DNA of 64,000 bases from Halorussus caseinilyticus (GTDB lineage Archaea > Halobacteriota > Halobacteria > Halobacteriales > Haladaptataceae). Under the pieces are notes generated by a model. It saw nothing but the letters and a program-made list of their open reading frames with translations. It did not search any database and had not been told where the DNA came from. The stretch is from assembly GCF_029338395.1 (NCBI RefSeq), contig NZ_CP119809.1, forward strand, positions 1,364,001-1,428,000. Direction: 5' to 3'. A program made the position numbers and the translations under genes. Shown here one piece after another: positions 7,155 to 23,850 of this stretch (position 1 is the stretch's first letter; each line of letters starts with the position of its first letter).

Positions 7155-8708
7155 CTACGCCTCTTCCACGTCGGGAAGTTCCTCGGCCACCGTCGAGAGC
7201 GCCTCTTGGCGGGTCTCGTCGTCCATCTCGCCGTCGGTCAGCGCCGCGAGCAGACTCGGCAGGGCCGCGACGTACTCCCCGCCTCCGGCGTGTTGGACGA
7301 ACCCGCGCTGGCGGAGCGTCCGGTTGTGACTGTAGGCGAGTTCGCGGTCCTCGGAACCGCCCGCGGCGGCGTGGGTCTCGTCCGGACTCGCCGGTCCCTC
7401 CCGGAGGTAGTAGGCCAGCATCGCGCGCTCGACCGGTTCGAGGGCGTCGAGTTCCGCGCGGATGGCGTCGAGGGGGTCGTCGCCGCGCTCGCTATCGCCG
7501 TCTTCGCTTCCGGTCGCGCCGTCGCTCTCGGAGGCGTCCTCGCCCGCATCGAATCCGCCGAGGTCCGCTTGCTGGGCTTTCCCGCCCTGTCGGACTTCCG
7601 GCGGGGCTTGCCCTTCCTGCTCGGCCCCGTCGGTGTCGATGTAGGGGTTCGCGCGCCGATTCCGGGAGGTGTCGAGCATCGCCTTGGCGAACTTGTCGGC
7701 GACTTCCTCCATCTCGCGGGCCTCCTCCAGTCGGCGTTCGAGGTCGGCGATGCGTTCGTCTTTCTTCTGAAGTTCCCGCTTCAGTTCCTCGATTTCGTCC
7801 TCCCGGCGAGTCTCGGCCTCGCTTATCTCCCGGAGGTCGCCCACGAGGTCGTCGCTGACCGACTTGAGGTCCGGACGCTCGAAGTCGTCGAGACCCGGCG
7901 TGGCCCCCGCGTCGAACGTCCGCTTGCGGTGGAACTGGACCCGGCGGGTCTCCTCGGACCAGTCGGTCGTCAGGAACGCCTCGCCGTCGCCCATGTCCTC
8001 GATGGCGTCGGCGTACTCGCTCCCGAGGATGCGCCCGACGACCTTCGTGTCGTTGTTCCACGTCAGTCGGTGCCACACCAGCCAGTCGCACTGGGTGATG
8101 AAGTCCTTCTTCACGTCGGCGGGGCGCTGGCTGATGCCCGCGATGCCGAGTCCGTGCTTGCGCCCGCGCTTGCCGATTTTGATGAGCATCCGGCCGCACT
8201 CGCCCAACCCGGCCCCCTCTGGGATGTACTCGTGGACCTCCTCTACCACCATCAGGAACGGCTTCTTCAGCTTCTTCTCCTTGGCGAAGAGGTGGCGCGC
8301 GACTTCGGTCAGCAGTTCCTTGCCCTCGTCCTCGTTCAGGTAGCCCGACACGTCGAGGATGATGGGCACGTTGTCCTCCAGCGCGAGCGACGCGAGTCGC
8401 TCGGCGTGTTCGGGGTTGACCTGTATGTCGCACTCGTCGTCGGCCCCGGCGTGTAAAAGTTCGTACTCTTCTTTGAGACCGTAGTACTCACCATCTGTGT
8501 CAACGAGTATTACCGGATATCCACCGTCTAAGAGCTTCTCCGCGACGACTGACGCGGTATTCGACTTCCCGCTTCCGGACTTTCCGGTGATGAACGCCCG
8601 GCCGGTAAGCACCTCTACGACGGGCAGTCTCACGGGGTCGCCGGGGTCGCCAGCGGTGCCCCCTTTCCCGGCGCTCACCTCGGCCACGTCGATGGTCTCT
8701 CGGGACAT
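7155..8708 (-). CDS. HerA/DUF87-like ATPase with coiled coil and C-terminal winged-helix-like region
   Basis: A 517-residue cytosolic P-loop ATPase. Walker A is GKSGSGKS at residues 42-49, Walker B is FLMVVEEVHE near 151-160, and the sensor-like region GLGIAGISQRPADVKKDF follows, typical of the HerA-FtsK superfamily DUF87 domain. A charged coiled coil spans about residues 285-345. After an acidic linker, residues about 425-517 look like a winged-helix domain (LEPVERAMLAYYLREG, NRTLRQRGFVQHAGGGEYV). HerA proteins are hexameric DNA translocases; no NurA nuclease is next door. The gene diverges from the EamA transporter over 89 bases. Role (DNA repair, plasmid or defence-related) is open. Confidence 0.78.
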   Translation of the reverse strand: MSRETIDVAEVSAGKGGTAGDPGDPVRLPVVEVLTGRAFITGKSGSGKSNTASVVAEKLLDGGYPVILVDTDGEYYGLKEEYELLHAGADDECDIQVNPEHAERLASLALEDNVPIILDVSGYLNEDEGKELLTEVARHLFAKEKKLKKPFLMVVEEVHEYIPEGAGLGECGRMLIKIGKRGRKHGLGIAGISQRPADVKKDFITQCDWLVWHRLTWNNDTKVVGRILGSEYADAIEDMGDGEAFLTTDWSEETRRVQFHRKRTFDAGATPGLDDFERPDLKSVSDDLVGDLREISEAETRREDEIEELKRELQKKDERIADLERRLEEAREMEEVADKFAKAMLDTSRNRRANPYIDTDGAEQEGQAPPEVRQGGKAQQADLGGFDAGEDASESDGATGSEDGDSERGDDPLDAIRAELDALEPVERAMLAYYLREGPASPDETHAAAGGSEDRELAYSHNRTLRQRGFVQHAGGGEYVAALPSLLAALTDGEMDDETRQEALSTVAEELPDVEEA

Positions 8709-16815: not shown

Positions 16816-16932
16816 TCAACTGCTGGTCTGGCACTTCGGACTACAGTAGGCGTTCTCCGCGGCGTTCGCGCTCTCGTGCGCTTTGAAGTCGGTACCGCAG
16901 TTCTCGCAGGTGTAAGTCTCGAAGTCCGACAT
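16816..16932 (-). CDS. 38-residue zinc-finger microprotein
   Basis: A short frame from ATG 16932 to TGA 16816 encodes 38 residues beginning MSDFETYTCENCGTDFKAHE. It carries a four-cysteine site, C9-x2-C12 and C30-x3-C34 (CENC, CSPKC), typical of the many haloarchaeal zinc-finger microproteins. It lies 69 bases downstream of the McrC-like gene on the same strand, so it could be the last gene of the cassette or an independent small gene. No other feature predicts its partner. Confidence 0.65.
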   Translation of the reverse strand: MSDFETYTCENCGTDFKAHESANAAENAYCSPKCQTSS

Positions 16933-17001
16933 CGCGGGCGGGGATGTCGGTCGGCGGAGTCAAAAATCCCACGCTCCGGAACGCTCGGGACTTTCCGACG
17001 T

Positions 17002-18513
17002 TCAGTCCGCGAACGGGAGTTCCGGGTCGTCGCCGAACCCCTTCACCTGAATCCCGTCGAGTTCCACGTCCTCGACCGACTCCGACGCGCCGACGAAGTA
17101 GCCCAGTTCCACCTCCGGGGACGCCACCACGTCGGGGTCGCTGGCGACGAACTCGCTGTCGGCGTCGCGGTCGATTCGAAGGTCTTCGCCGACTTTCGCG
17201 TAACACCCGTAGGTCAGCAGTTGCTGTGCCTTTTCGCGCAAGCGACCCCTCCCGACGCTGTGTTTCACTTCGGCGAGAAACAGTTTCTCCAGCGTGGCTT
17301 GCTCGGCCGTCGTGTCGAGGCGGAGTAACGCAATGTCGGGATACTTCCGGTCGGCGTCGTAGTCGAAGGCCTCCGCGCGAATCTGTTGGGTGTAGCGCAG
17401 GAGGTACCCGCTCCGGAGCGTCGGCCGGGGGTCGTCGTCGCTCGGATACGCCTCGCCGTCGGGGTACTCCGGGAGGGTGATTTCGACGTACTCGCGCTCC
17501 TCGTCGTCGTCGGTCCACTGGTGGGTGCCCTTCCAGTCGTTGAACAGGAGATACTCCTTCCCGCCGCCCTCCCACGCGGCGACGAACTCCTCGCGGCCCT
17601 TCGCGTCTATCTGGCGCAGGCGCGAGTTCTCGAACTCGTCCACGATTCGGAAAATCCAGTACAACTCGAAGAGGTCCGGGTTCGTCACGTCGTCGTCGTC
17701 CGGTTCGAACACCTCCATCGAGAGCAGTCGCTTGGCGTCTTCCTCCCGGAGGTCGCCCCCCGTGATGCGCCGGTAGTCCTCGAGCAGGGCGGCGGCCTCC
17801 CGGTAGAGGGGGTTGCGGTCGCCGAGGACGGCGGCGAGTTCGCGGTCCGAGACCGACACCGACTCGGCGTCGAAGTTGTCGAGGTGGGCGTTCTCCAGCG
17901 CCGACCGGACGATTCTCCGGGCGCGAGCGCCGGGTGCCCACTCCGAGAACCATCCCGGCCGGTCCGACTCGTCGTCGCCCGTGAAGTTCCGGTCGAATCG
18001 CTCGTAGACCCGCTTGATGGTCGCCAACAGTTCCACGAGTACCTTGTTTCTCGACGTGACGACGCTCCGGTTCGGGACCCGACAGACGAAACTCTGACCC
18101 CGAACGTCGCCGGTCGCGCGCCGACGCTTGACCGTCCGGTTCCAATCGACGTGGCCCCGGACCTCCCCCTCGAAGGTGTCGAGGCGCTGGCGAACCGTCG
18201 GTTCGAGCGACCGGAGGCGGTGGGGCAGAAGGGCAACGAAGTCCAGCACGCCGACCGGTTCGCCCTCCCCGTCGGTGATTCCGGCGGTCTCTCGGGCGTC
18301 GAGGTCCAACTCGGCGCGGTCGGTGAGACCCTCCGACCCGAGGTTACCGGTCCGCAGGAAGCGATATTCGAGCAACTCGGTCAGGCCCTCGATGCGGACC
18401 ATCGGGTCGAGACCGTCGAGGAACCGCCGGATACTCGCCACTCGGCCGACGTAACTGACGAGGTACCGCGCGGTCTCCTCGACGAGGCGGTCCCTGTCGG
18501 GTTTCTCACTCAT
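17002..18513 (-). CDS. McrC-like protein with PD-(D/E)XK nuclease site
   Basis: A 503-residue protein. Residues about 115-165 hold the pattern GHVDWNRTVKRR followed by RVPNRSVVTSRNKVLVELL, which I associate with the DUF2357-type region of McrC-like proteins. The C-terminal part carries a nuclease core: PDIALLRLD (391-399) gives the acidic residue D393, and FLAEVKHSVGRG supplies E415-x-K417. Its start overlaps the end of the upstream McrB-like gene by eight bases, so the pair is translationally coupled. The likely role is the DNA-cutting subunit driven by the McrB-like motor. Family assignment is by motif only. Confidence 0.75.
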   Translation of the reverse strand: MSEKPDRDRLVEETARYLVSYVGRVASIRRFLDGLDPMVRIEGLTELLEYRFLRTGNLGSEGLTDRAELDLDARETAGITDGEGEPVGVLDFVALLPHRLRSLEPTVRQRLDTFEGEVRGHVDWNRTVKRRRATGDVRGQSFVCRVPNRSVVTSRNKVLVELLATIKRVYERFDRNFTGDDESDRPGWFSEWAPGARARRIVRSALENAHLDNFDAESVSVSDRELAAVLGDRNPLYREAAALLEDYRRITGGDLREEDAKRLLSMEVFEPDDDDVTNPDLFELYWIFRIVDEFENSRLRQIDAKGREEFVAAWEGGGKEYLLFNDWKGTHQWTDDDEEREYVEITLPEYPDGEAYPSDDDPRPTLRSGYLLRYTQQIRAEAFDYDADRKYPDIALLRLDTTAEQATLEKLFLAEVKHSVGRGRLREKAQQLLTYGCYAKVGEDLRIDRDADSEFVASDPDVVASPEVELGYFVGASESVEDVELDGIQVKGFGDDPELPFAD

Positions 18514-20497
18514 CGCTCAGGTCGGCGTCGAGGAAGTCCTCGGCGAACCGCTCGGCGCTGGCGCGGTCGAACCCCTCCACGGTCTCCATCTCGCCGAGCA
18601 GGTCGTCTATCTCGTCGCCGCGAACGCCGTCGAGTTGCGGGAGGACGTGGGCCGCGACTGCGGGGCCGTACTCCACGACGCCGCGGGCCTCCATCGTCTG
18701 GACGGCGTGGTTCAGCACGTCCTCCACCAGCGCCGGACCGACCGGACGGACCGCTTGGACCGCCGACCAGATGTCCGCGAGGTCATCGCGGAGTCGCGTT
18801 TCGAGGTCGTCTCCGTCCGCGCCGATGGCGTCCTCGTCGGGGAGTTCGGTGTCCCAGTGGTCGAAGTACTCGCCGACGAGTTCGGGCGAAATCTCGTCGG
18901 CCTCGGTCGGGACCGGCACGGAGACGAAGGCGAACCGGCGCATGAACGCGTAACTCAGGCGATAGAGCGACGACTTGTCGTCGGTGTTCATCGTGGCCAG
19001 CAGTCGCCAGTCGTCGGGGACGTAGTAGTCGTGGTCGGTCACGGGCGGGTCGTCGTCGGGGTCGCCGTGGAGCGTGACCGACCCGCCTTCGGTGTCGAAC
19101 GGGAGGGTGACGTTGTTCCCCGTCAGCGCCGAGAACAGCGACCCGAAGGCCTTGTCGATGTCGGCGCGGTTGAGTTCGTCGATTACCAGCCACTCGTTTT
19201 CGGGTTCGGGTTCGGCGTCGGCCTTCCGCAAGCCGGGGTCGAGAAAGCGCCGCAGGAAGACGCCGGGTTCGAACTCGAGTCGGCCGTCGTCGCGCTGTTG
19301 GCGGTACCCGCCGATGGTGTCGAAGGTGGTCCAGTCGTCGGTCGCGGTGGCCAACTCGTAGTCGTCGCCGACGTAGTGGTCGCAGACGACTTCGGCGAGT
19401 TCGGTCTTGCCCGACCCCGGCGGCCCCGTCAGGACGACGTGCTTGCCGCTCCGAAGTGCGTCGTGAATCTGGTGGGTGACGGGCGGTTCGTCGTCTTCGG
19501 CGGGGAAGTGTAGCCTCTCGGCGGTTGGCGGGCCTTCGACCGTCTCGAACGCGTCCCGTGGGAGGTCCCAACTTCCCCAGTCCGGTTCCGAGTCGGTTTT
19601 CGCGGCGGTGTCGTCCATACCGGAGGCGTCGGTCGCCTCAAGAGTGGCGGCGTCCGCGGTGGAAGCGTCGGCCTCGCCCGCGTCCCACCCCTGCCACGGG
19701 TCGTCGCTGGCCTCCCAGTCGCCCTCGATTGCTTCGAGGTCGGAGTCGAAGTAGTCGGGGTGATAATCGGTCCCGTCTTCGTCCCGATACAGTTTCCGGC
19801 CGCACTTGTCCTGTATAGTACTGAGATTCACGTTAAGGTCGTCGGCTACCGACTGTTGGACGAGTAACCGGCGTTCCTCGGTCGTGAGGTCTTCTCGGTC
19901 GTCTAGCAGAAATCGCAGGACGACCTCCTCTATCTGGTAGTGTTTCGACGGCGAGTCGTTCCAATCGTCGGGAAGATGCTCGTCGGCGAGCGACCGGACG
20001 TGTTCGCGGCGCGCGCGCCGGACGATGGCCTCCCGGAGCGAGTCGGGGGTCGCCGCGATTGCGACTTCCTTTTCCGGTCTCTTTTTTAAGTCCCGAATCT
20101 GCGTCTCGATTCCGTTCTCGACGGCTCCGTCGAGTGTTTTTTCCTTTATTTGCACCGTCTCGGAGTACGAGAACTCCCGCCGGAGGTCGGCGTCCCACAG
20201 CGCGAATACGTCTTTTTCCTCGTTGTATCCCGCGAGAACGACGAAGTAGTCCCCCGAGTCGTCTAACGACCCCCCATCCCCGTCCCACGAAGACACTATG
20301 ACCTGAACGTTGTACTCGTTTCCCCGCGTAGAGTCCGTCAGACTGTAGAGGTAGACCCGGAGTTTCTCGGGGAGTGGCGGCGACAGTTCGAGTTCGAGCG
20401 GCTTTTCGTCCGGCCCCGAACTACGCTCGACGTGCGGGTCGAGGGCGTCCTCGAATGTTCGGTTGAGAACGTCGCGGGAAATCCGACCGTTCGACAT
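18506..20497 (-). CDS. McrB-like AAA+ NTPase with N-terminal sensor-like domain
   Basis: A 663-residue protein. The AAA+ part has Walker A GPPGSGKT (358-365), Walker B LVIDELNRADIDKAF (437-451) and the McrB-type signature MNTDDKS (503-509), followed by AFMRRFAFVSVPVP. The N-terminal domain (about 35-165) contains FVVLAGYNEEKDVFALWDAD, probably a DNA- or modification-recognising domain. Residues about 185-245 look like an HTH (VADDLNVNLSTIQDKCGRKL). A low-complexity linker (260-315) separates the halves. In McrBC, such subunits form GTP-driven rings that load the McrC nuclease. It is 86 bases downstream of the methylase on the same strand. Confidence 0.82.
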   Translation of the reverse strand: MSNGRISRDVLNRTFEDALDPHVERSSGPDEKPLELELSPPLPEKLRVYLYSLTDSTRGNEYNVQVIVSSWDGDGGSLDDSGDYFVVLAGYNEEKDVFALWDADLRREFSYSETVQIKEKTLDGAVENGIETQIRDLKKRPEKEVAIAATPDSLREAIVRRARREHVRSLADEHLPDDWNDSPSKHYQIEEVVLRFLLDDREDLTTEERRLLVQQSVADDLNVNLSTIQDKCGRKLYRDEDGTDYHPDYFDSDLEAIEGDWEASDDPWQGWDAGEADASTADAATLEATDASGMDDTAAKTDSEPDWGSWDLPRDAFETVEGPPTAERLHFPAEDDEPPVTHQIHDALRSGKHVVLTGPPGSGKTELAEVVCDHYVGDDYELATATDDWTTFDTIGGYRQQRDDGRLEFEPGVFLRRFLDPGLRKADAEPEPENEWLVIDELNRADIDKAFGSLFSALTGNNVTLPFDTEGGSVTLHGDPDDDPPVTDHDYYVPDDWRLLATMNTDDKSSLYRLSYAFMRRFAFVSVPVPTEADEISPELVGEYFDHWDTELPDEDAIGADGDDLETRLRDDLADIWSAVQAVRPVGPALVEDVLNHAVQTMEARGVVEYGPAVAAHVLPQLDGVRGDEIDDLLGEMETVEGFDRASAERFAEDFLDADLSDE

Positions 20498-20583
20498 GCT
20501 GAGAAGCGAAACAGTAGGATGGTATATATCTTCTTACTTCGCGAGAACATCGAACGCAGTCCGTCTCGGTTTCGCGCGACCCG

Positions 20584-23349
20584 CTACTCGAACTCGCCCA
20601 ACCGCGCTTCCAGAAGCTTCCGGTAGGCGTCGTCGCCGGTGGCGTCGGCCAGTCCCTCGCACAACGCCCGCAGGTCGTCGGTGACTGACCAGCGGTCTAC
20701 GTACTCCGCGAGCGACTTGTCGTGTTCCCACCGATAGCGCAGGAACTGGGCCTTGTCGAGGTCCGTGAGGTCCGCGCCGTCCCCGTCCCGGTCGCTCTCC
20801 ACCCGGTCTCGGAGGTAGGCGATGCGCTTGTCGTCGTCCCACGTCCCGAGTCGGAAGTCGCCGTCCTCGGTCCGGTAGAGGCGGGCGTCTTCCAGTTGCT
20901 CGGGGGTGGCGTCGGTTCCGCGGGCGAGTTTGTTCAGGTCGTCGAAGGTGGGGTCGGGGACCTCCAGCAAGTCCAAGAAGAGGTCGATTTCGCCGATGTC
21001 GCTCCCGTGCTGGACGACGCCGTAGATTTCCTCGACGACTTCCTTGGCGGTCATGATGTCCCCCGCGCGCCGGACCTCGCCGTGGTGTTTGGAGTACTCG
21101 TGGAAACACCGGCCCATCTCCACGACGCCGATGTCGCCCTGCGCGAGGTTGCGGTCGGTTTCGAGGCGCTCGCGGGTCTCCTCGGCGGTCCGGTAGATTC
21201 GCCGTCGCAGGGAGTTCCACGAGATGGGTTCGCGTTCGTCGGCGGGACGCGCGACGATAACGATGTCGAACTCGACCGCTTCGCCCGAGATGAACTTGTT
21301 GCTGTCGGCCGAGACGGGGGCCGTCGCGGTGACTTCGAAGCCAACGTCACAGAGGGCCGCGAGGAGTTCGCCCCACGATTCCGAATCGCTGTGGTGGTAC
21401 GTGAACGCCAGCACCCCGTCGTCTTTCAGCGCCCGATGGATGACCGTGAACGCCTCGTGGAGTTCCGACTCGAAGTCCTCGGTGGTCTTGTCGAGGAACG
21501 GGTTCGTGACGATGGACTCGGCACGCGGGGTTTTGTCGTACTCGAACCAGTCGTACTCGTCTTCGAGCAGGAGCTTCTGCCAGACGTAGAAGTAGTCCGA
21601 CACCTCCGAGTACATCAGGTTGTCGTAGTACGGCGGGTCCGTGATGACCGCGTCGTACTCGTCTTCGGCGTCTATCGTCCGCATGTCGCCCTGATAGACG
21701 CTGGCGTCGTCGCCTATCGGCTTGGCGAACGGCGGGGTCTCGACGGTTTCGCCGTCCGAGACGTAGCGTTCGGTCGGGTTCGCGGCGTACTCGACCGCAC
21801 GCCGGACCTTCTCGTAGGTGTTCGAGAACGTCCCCCTGCCCGCCCGCGTCCCCCAGACGTTGTTCTCGACGATTTCGACCTGCGGCACGAACGAGTTCAG
21901 GCGGAAGGTCCCCTCTATCTTGTTCGCGGCGAGGTTGTAGATGGTGAACGTACTCTGGAACATCAGCGAGTCCGAGAACGTCAGCAGGAGCAACTCCCGG
22001 AGGTTGCGGTCCTCGATGCGGTCTATCGAGCGCAGGAGCGACGACAGACAGAGAAGCTGTCTCGCGTTGAACATGTCCGTCCAGTCGTGGTAGCCGTGGT
22101 CGAATATCGGGTTGCGCTCGGCGGTCAGGTGGCCCTCGGGAATCGCCTCGTCGGGGACGTACTCGCGCAACTCGTCGCGTTCCTCCCACGCCTGTTCCGC
22201 GGCGTCGTAGAGGGCCTCGTCGAACGCCCCGACGGACTTGTAGCCTTTCACCTCGCTCCGGTCCAATCCGCGGTCGTCGCAGGTCTCACAGTAGTACTCG
22301 ACGGCGTACTGACGCAGGTCGAATCCTCCCTGTTCCCGTATCGCGTCGGTGATGGCGTAGCGTTGCCCGCAGTCGGTGCAGGTGTACTCCCTGCCGCGGG
22401 AGACGGTGCCCCGTTCGGGGACCCACTCGTGACCGCACTCGCTACAGGTCGATTCGGACTGCCAGTCGTCTACCACCACGACCGACTCGCAGGCCGGACA
22501 GAAGACGTTGTACCGGCCGTCGTCCTCGTAACGGCCGCTGGCGACTCGGTAGTCCTTGAAGAGGGGAACGGTCGTCCCGCACGAAACGCAGTCGAGTTCC
22601 TTGACCCAGAACTCGTACATCACCTCGGCGTGGTGGTCGTGGGCCGCGAGTTCGTCGCGGGCGTCGTCACCTATCTCGTACTCGAAGTCGGCGTCCAGAC
22701 CGAGGAGGTCGTCCGCGGCGGGGTCGTCGTCCGCCCTCGGGTCCTCGCGCTCGGCGTTGGGACAGGGCGTCCGGTAGTAGCGAGTTATCTCCTCGCGCAC
22801 GTCGTCTTCGACACTCTCGAACGCGGCGTCCAACTCGCCGAGGTCGGTTCGGCCCGCTTCGAGTTGCTTCTTCGTGACTAGCCACGCGACCGGGTTCAGG
22901 TCGTAGCCCACCGACTCGACGCCGAACCGGGAGGCTTCCACCAGCGAGGTTCCCCCGCCCATGAAGGGGTCCAGAATCTTCTTGCCCTCGACCTGCACGT
23001 CCTTCGGGTAGAGTTCCCAGAGCGACTCGGGGTCCGAGAGGTCCACGCTCTCGACCAGTCGTTGCACGTCGCTCGTCCCGCCGACGAAACTGTCGAGCGA
23101 GGCGTTCCGACCGGGTTCGCGGACGCTCACCGTCTCTGGGTCGTCCACCAGCGCGTAGAGACAGATAGTGCGGAAGACGCATCCGAGGCGGCGCGCCCAC
23201 CACTTGTGCATCGTGGCAATCGGGCGGTAGTGAATCTTCGCGCGGCCTTCCTTCGCCGCGATTTCGTTCACCCGCTCTATCGGAAACCCTCTCTCGATGG
23301 GAAGGGTATTCCGCTCGTCGTCCGCAGACCGCCCCGATTCCTGCGCCAT
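20584..23349 (-). CDS. Zinc-ribbon DNA adenine methylase (DUF1156/COG1743 type)
   Basis: A 921-residue predicted N6-adenine DNA methyltransferase. The N-terminal DUF1156-like segment has KIHYRPIATMHKWWARRLG. The AdoMet-binding motif is DPFMGGGTSLVEASRFG (127-143) and the catalytic motif is DPPY (571-574) in VITDPPYYDNLMYSEVSDYF. Between them are five CxxC knuckles (254, 284, 302, 324 and 354 are the first Cys of each), which form zinc ribbons. The C-terminal third is acidic and helical. It is the first gene of a minus-strand cassette with McrB- and McrC-like genes; its presumed job is to mark self DNA. Such methylases more often occur with DUF499 ATPases, so this pairing is notable. Confidence 0.85.
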   Translation of the reverse strand: MAQESGRSADDERNTLPIERGFPIERVNEIAAKEGRAKIHYRPIATMHKWWARRLGCVFRTICLYALVDDPETVSVREPGRNASLDSFVGGTSDVQRLVESVDLSDPESLWELYPKDVQVEGKKILDPFMGGGTSLVEASRFGVESVGYDLNPVAWLVTKKQLEAGRTDLGELDAAFESVEDDVREEITRYYRTPCPNAEREDPRADDDPAADDLLGLDADFEYEIGDDARDELAAHDHHAEVMYEFWVKELDCVSCGTTVPLFKDYRVASGRYEDDGRYNVFCPACESVVVVDDWQSESTCSECGHEWVPERGTVSRGREYTCTDCGQRYAITDAIREQGGFDLRQYAVEYYCETCDDRGLDRSEVKGYKSVGAFDEALYDAAEQAWEERDELREYVPDEAIPEGHLTAERNPIFDHGYHDWTDMFNARQLLCLSSLLRSIDRIEDRNLRELLLLTFSDSLMFQSTFTIYNLAANKIEGTFRLNSFVPQVEIVENNVWGTRAGRGTFSNTYEKVRRAVEYAANPTERYVSDGETVETPPFAKPIGDDASVYQGDMRTIDAEDEYDAVITDPPYYDNLMYSEVSDYFYVWQKLLLEDEYDWFEYDKTPRAESIVTNPFLDKTTEDFESELHEAFTVIHRALKDDGVLAFTYHHSDSESWGELLAALCDVGFEVTATAPVSADSNKFISGEAVEFDIVIVARPADEREPISWNSLRRRIYRTAEETRERLETDRNLAQGDIGVVEMGRCFHEYSKHHGEVRRAGDIMTAKEVVEEIYGVVQHGSDIGEIDLFLDLLEVPDPTFDDLNKLARGTDATPEQLEDARLYRTEDGDFRLGTWDDDKRIAYLRDRVESDRDGDGADLTDLDKAQFLRYRWEHDKSLAEYVDRWSVTDDLRALCEGLADATGDDAYRKLLEARLGEFE

Positions 23350-23432: not shown

Positions 23433-23555
23433 GGTGTAACTCGCGGTAAAATCACGGGCCGGAAGGGATTTGAACCACGCCGAGACGGTCCGGGCGTGTG
23501 GCGCTTCGCGCCATTCCGGGCTTTCGTCTCGTCTACTTCAAATCCTTCCGTCGAA
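23433..23555 (-). repeat. tRNA-Lys 3'-end duplicate with long hairpin
   Basis: Bases 23454-23475 repeat 23629-23650 exactly (22 bp covering the tRNA 3' end and T-loop). The copy folds: 23461-23474 pairs with 23537-23549, then 23480-23486 with 23525-23531, with a GGCGC/GCGCC stem at the tip. The flank GTGTAACTCGCGGTAAAAT (from 23434) is the same as at the tRNA-Trp duplicate apart from one base. Confidence 0.75.
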
Positions 23556-23621: not shown

Positions 23622-23629
23622 AAAGAATA

Positions 23630-23703
23630 CGGGCCGGAAGGGATTTGAACCCCTGACCGTCTGATTAAGAGTCAGACGCTCTCCCTAACTGAGCTACCGG
23701 CCC
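23630..23703 (-). tRNA. tRNA-Lys (CTT)
   Basis: A 74-base minus-strand tRNA. Acceptor GGGCCGG/CCGGCCC, D-arm with GCTCAGTTAGGGAGAGC, anticodon stem TCTGA/TCAGA with loop CTCTTAA (anticodon CTT), T-arm AGGGGTTCAAATCCCTT and discriminator G. No intron and no encoded CCA. Its 3' end is partly duplicated 175 bases downstream. Confidence 0.95.
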
Positions 23704-23850
23704 AACGCATCCTGAAGTTACCGGGTGGGACGTAAATACGTTTCCGTTTCGCCGGAGTGTTACTCCTTTCGATTCGGCGCGAAACTGGCCGACGGCTCCC
23801 CGGTGGAAGTCGGCGCTCCGACGGATTTTCCGCATAGAACCTCTCCGGGA

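Follow-up and report, generated by a model that had tools for sequence, protein, structure and literature searches.

The window, i.e. the whole stretch of 64,000 nucleotides analysed here, derives from a haloarchaeon of the genus Halorussus and carries on its minus strand neighbouring genes for a DNA methylase (M), a McrB-like protein (B) and a candidate McrC-like nuclease (C). Their positions are given in Table 1 together with those of the surrounding features. The initial annotation had placed the three genes on one strand and quoted a set of motifs for them, and all of these motifs were found at their place. The 8-bp overlap that it reported between B and C was found at 18506-18513, and it is repeated in three relatives of the locus (L038, L076 and L077).

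Table 1. Features of the locus, in coordinates of the window.
Feature	Position	Strand	Remarks
M gene	20584-23349	minus	921 aa; DUF1156-type DNA methyltransferase, HmaB / BREX-related type
B gene	18506-20497	minus	663 aa; McrB-like
C gene	17002-18513	minus	503 aa; predicted McrC-like
MTaX1 domain of B, residues 45-157	20027-20365	minus	Pfam PF20296
M residues 441-520, core of hypervariable segment	21790-22029	minus	common to MTaX1-partnered methylases
BRE/TATA-like element CCGAAAGGTTATAC upstream of M	23392-23379	minus	candidate, sequence only
TATATA upstream of B	20528-20523	minus	~26 nt before the ATG of B; candidate, from the sequence
38-aa zinc finger	16816-16932		real ORF
tRNA-Lys	23629-23704		

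M consists of a DUF1156 and an N6_N4_Mtase domain (Pfam). Its best matches were the PADLOC model HmaB and the NCBI model for anti-phage DUF1156 proteins, the latter below its cut-off. Motif I (DPFMGGGTS) is found at residue 127 and motif IV (DPPY) at residue 571, and between the two lie five CxxC pairs (at 254, 284, 302, 324 and 354), the cysteines of which are invariant across six methylases. When methylases with over 90% identity across a large part of their remaining length were compared, residues ~361-560 proved hypervariable, as would be expected of a target-recognition part.

B carries two Pfam domains, MTaX1 (described as 'methylase-associated') in the N-terminal part and AAA_5 at residues 353-522, and a helical domain covers residues ~166-264. 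The Walker A motif GPPGSGKT is located at residue 358, DELNRAD at 440 and MNTDDKS at 503, where the signature NTDD is of the NxxD type. The profile of B matches E. coli McrB in PDB (6hz4, E=2.4e-14), so that its description as a McrB-like AAA+ protein is confirmed. MTaX1 is previously known from other restriction-modification type contexts (PMC10853773). Among the 50 PDB fold matches listed for this domain none had an E-value below 0.03, the best being I-Ssp6803I (E=0.03, not significant), and no B3 structure was among them.

The putative nuclease site of C is formed by PD at residues 392-393 and EVK at 415-417. In an alignment of 39 homologues P392, D393, E415 and K417 are all invariant, which answers the question, raised by the initial annotation, of whether the acidic residues of the nuclease core are conserved. 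No family match was obtained for C in Pfam, NCBIfam or PADLOC, the Pfam McrC/DUF2357 families included, and a sequence search of PDB gave no match. A structure model of C with a mean pLDDT of 81.5 was compared with PDB using Foldseek, and the four best fold matches were all McrC chains. The best of these is modest, with E=2.1e-3, a probability of 0.93 and a low TM-score. From the sequence motifs and the model together we assign C as McrC-like with moderate certainty.

The initial annotation reported one promoter. A promoter-like element, CCGAAAGGTTATAC, does precede M, but its being the only one is called into question by a probable second promoter in front of B. The gap between M and B measures 86 bp and has a GC content of 52%, compared to 67% for the window. 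Only two TATATA hexamers occur in the whole window, and one of them lies inside this gap. Its distance from the ATG of B and the AT-richer surroundings suggest that B and C are transcribed separately, probably from a leaderless promoter of their own. Separate transcription would suit a system in which the methylase must act first.

The three genes are flanked by tRNA-Lys on one side and by guaB and the 38-aa zinc finger on the other. The zinc finger had been proposed as a further part of the system. It adjoins guaB in most of 16 congeners without the trio at this site, and the proposal is hence refuted. In the congeners the gap from guaB to tRNA-Lys is filled by other genes, which by sequence are GNAT-, luciferase- and kinase-like. 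From this arrangement the zinc finger is taken as a core neighbour and the trio as an insertion in a variable site. An exact 22-bp repeat of the 3' end of tRNA-Lys was also observed (23455-23476 and 23630-23651, ~150 bp from the tRNA), and similar repeats are found at the same site in congeners. The possibility that the trio is a mobile element with tRNA repeats at its ends was considered and rejected, as the repeat at 23455-23476 is absent from the other side of the trio and similar repeats occur in congeners lacking the trio.

Co-occurrence of the three genes, a check named by the initial annotation, was evaluated on 293 haloarchaeal genomes of one order. C-like proteins were found in 83 of these genomes, DUF1156 methylases in 89 and MTaX1 (PF20296) in seven. 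A DUF1156 methylase lies within ~6.5 kb of MTaX1 in all seven, and an eighth genome (G250, locus L037) has a divergent N-terminal domain at the position of MTaX1, with M adjoining. For the association test, McrB/C loci were taken from whole genomes and GTDB contigs, the window was excluded and L037 was scored as MTaX1. M was within 6 kb of 7/7 McrB/C loci with MTaX1 versus 5/59 without it (p=1.0e-6). The N-terminal domains recognised in McrBs lacking MTaX1 were MrcB_N (6/38) and EVE (4/38).

The trio thus recurs in haloarchaea, with relatives for example in Halorubrum saccharovorum, Halorubrum lacusprofundi and Haloferax larsenii, and adjacency is kept despite varied gene order: M-B-C in the window, DUF499-B-C-M in L038 and L076, divergent in L037, and convergent in L060 and L117. 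In L057 an MTaX1 domain is fused to an HNH nuclease (7550-8557) and situated between DUF499 and a DUF1156 methylase, which means that reader and M remain together even though the type of nuclease changes. Beyond the order, 393 genomes of the phylum contributed one weak extra MTaX1 match only, and the only relative on viral contigs was one distant McrB. Two congeners (L061 and L062) have a DUF1156 methylase convergent with a McrB/C pair without MTaX1; these pairs possibly carry a different reader for a different specificity.

The hypervariable segment is common to methylases that adjoin MTaX1 effectors. Over residues 441-520 the M of the window is 71-76% identical to the methylases of the four non-divergent MTaX1 loci (L037, L038, L057 and L076), while identity to 71 other methylases is at most 66%, with a median of 46%. 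Among 81 other aligned methylases the four segments nearest to that of the window are exactly those of L037, L038, L057 and L076; the limits 441-520 were chosen after inspection of the data, and the same four also ranked first with a coarser split at 431-560. Between three separate lineages, the methylases partnered with MTaX1 have an identity of 73.5% over 441-520, and in a null matched for relatedness and structure (mean 47, standard deviation 4) none of 20,000 draws reached the observed value.

The four methylases occupy different positions in the methylase tree. A single trio lineage was tested on this tree and rejected, since the tree requires no fewer than four label changes. The pairing of methylases with MTaX1 effectors has accordingly come about repeatedly. 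A divergent MTaX1 clade (L052, L058-L060 and L117), which adjoins DUF499 operons, has a different segment with ~42% identity to that of the window over 441-520. The N-terminal domain of L037 shares only 28% identity with the MTaX1 of the window, compared to 76% between their M segments, and the reader is therefore not diverging in step with the recognition segment.

These data bear on whether M and B-C belong together at all. They could be independent genes that became neighbours by chance in a defence island at a tRNA-Lys hot spot, given that this site holds other genes in congeners and that DUF1156 methylases are common (89/293 genomes). With the p-value of the association, the recurrence in varied orders and the sharing of the recognition segment against it, we regard such a coincidence as very improbable.

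The main rival explanation is that the trio serves a DUF499-centred, BREX-related (Hma-like) system in an accessory role. M would then be an ordinary methylase of BREX-related type and MTaX1-McrB/C one among several exchangeable nuclease cassettes backing a DUF499/helicase core, and the cassette would work in trans with a DUF499 protein encoded ~55 kb away. M is closest to the HmaB and DUF1156 anti-phage models, and the genome has one DUF499 and three further DUF1156 methylases at 1.43-1.445 Mb. In Halorubrum (L038 and L076) DUF499, B-C and M follow one another in this order on one strand, which indicates that the pair could be an added effector of a DUF499 system, and other genes occupy the slot between DUF499 and M in relatives. 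Against this, neither DUF499 nor a helicase adjoins the trio in the window, the occurrence of PF20296 goes with that of the DUF1156 methylase gene, and the segment 441-520 of M sorts by the presence of MTaX1 and not by that of DUF499. We therefore consider an accessory role of this kind unlikely.

The DUF499 island of the same genome (C1:1427000-1446900, L056) lies outside the window and contains the three additional DUF1156 methylases, a Fic protein and a McrC-like pair of AAA_5 and PF10117 proteins. One of its methylases (L056:9561-12185) has DPPH in place of DPPY and may be inactive. A second McrBC-like pair, different from B-C, is present in DUF499/DUF1156 islands of L037, L038, L056, L057, L067-L071, L074 and L075. 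It is made up of an AAA_5-type protein of ~370-425 aa and a protein of ~585-610 aa, where PF10117 was confirmed in L056 only. The plasmids pMBLA003601 (Haloplanus rallus, L249) and pHLAC01 (Halorubrum lacusprofundi, L250) carry a McrB-like ATPase, a Dam-like methylase, a second DNA methyltransferase and DUF499 together; the former additionally has an 'alkaline phosphatase' protein, and the latter locus is interrupted by an ISH3 element.

Methylase and reader stay together through changes of nuclease, gene order and methylase lineage, and a recognition segment is shared among the MTaX1-partnered methylases. This argues for restriction-modification, and the trio is probably a stand-alone system in which the host's own DNA would be protected by M, and sites left unmethylated would be cut by MTaX1-McrB/McrC. 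M would methylate a specific DNA site selected by its recognition segment, probably at adenine N6, and thereby mark the host genome. B is predicted to recognise the same site by means of MTaX1 and would bind it when unmethylated. The McrB-type AAA+ ring of B would then join C, hydrolyse NTP and translocate along or loop the DNA, whereupon the PD-(D/E)XK site of C would make the DNA break. The presumed benefit to the host would be antiviral.

Cutting of modified DNA is the opposite possibility. McrBC is the textbook enzyme for cutting modified DNA, and a type IV-like MTaX1-McrB/C would, by analogy with this modification-dependent system, attack modified foreign DNA, with M as a mere neighbour or as a shield for host DNA. 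MTaX1 has moreover been proposed to discriminate modified DNA (PMC10853773). Every MTaX1-McrB/C locus found includes M, though, and the host itself would become the substrate if its own mark was the target. Furthermore, the McrBs of the family with known readers of modified bases (EVE and MrcB_N) are among those mostly without M. We find a type IV-like action very unlikely. The initial annotation had suggested restriction-modification on a McrB motor, with cutting of DNA either lacking or carrying the mark. The trio recurs, its nuclease residues are invariant and restriction-modification is the best reading, whereas cutting of M's own mark is disfavoured.

A more general proposal can be put forward tentatively. 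MTaX1 may be a sequence reader that is portable and corresponds to a single specificity class of DUF1156 methylases, and that plugs either a McrBC motor-nuclease or an HNH nuclease onto methylases taken from BREX-related systems. This would give stand-alone, DUF499-free restriction-modification systems in which the specificities of methylase and reader are inherited as a set. The restriction-modification reading itself gives MTaX1 a predicted function, and BREX-related methylases a second possible use. As a methylase would accompany the same McrB motor, and the choice of mode would fall to the reader domain, a switch between 'cut if marked' and 'cut if unmarked' becomes directly testable.

Compared to E. 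coli McrBC (type IV), the trio has the same kind of AAA+ GTPase-type motor with NxxD signature and a McrC-type nuclease. The E. coli system needs modified cytosine and has no methylase of its own, whereas the trio has an MTaX1 reader, and its adjacent DUF1156 methylase is recurrently linked, contrary to the lack of a cognate methylase that characterises type IV. The CoCoNuT census describes McrB-like GTPases with recurrent predicted-methyltransferase neighbours and NxD, NxxD and NxxxD branches, and leaves the methyltransferase-associated McrB clades to a later publication (PMC11090510). A fusion of MTaX1 and McrB with a DUF1156 methylase is not described in the passages of the census consulted, and B has NxxD (NTDD) instead of the NxD signature of CoCoNuTs.

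Hma and other DUF499-centred BREX-related systems share the DUF1156 N6-methyltransferase family with the trio, but their restriction arm is a DUF499 ATPase with a helicase-nuclease (PMC12839542). Here McrB/McrC are found instead and neither of those components adjoins; the genome gave a single DUF499 match, ~55 kb away at C1:1441468. The literature searched, with most subscription journals outside its scope, contained no report of a DUF1156 methylase combined with an MTaX1-McrB/McrC pair.

The statement of the initial annotation that such a trio is biochemically undescribed is not supported in view of LlaJI from Lactococcus, a characterised McrBC-like restriction-modification system targeting unmethylated DNA (PMC1459862, PMC12707154), and of the methyltransferase-associated McrB clades in the published census (PMC11090510). 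LlaJI demonstrates that a McrBC-like pair can act in restriction-modification on unmethylated DNA. Like the trio, LlaJI (R1/R2) has a McrB-like AAA+ protein with a site-recognition N-terminal domain, a McrC-like PD-(D/E)XK partner and dedicated methylation. The differences are that the site of LlaJI is asymmetric and is served by two methylases, and that its recognition domain is of the B3 type, whereas the trio has a single DUF1156-type methylase with DPPY (N6/N4-amino type) and MTaX1 as N-terminal domain.
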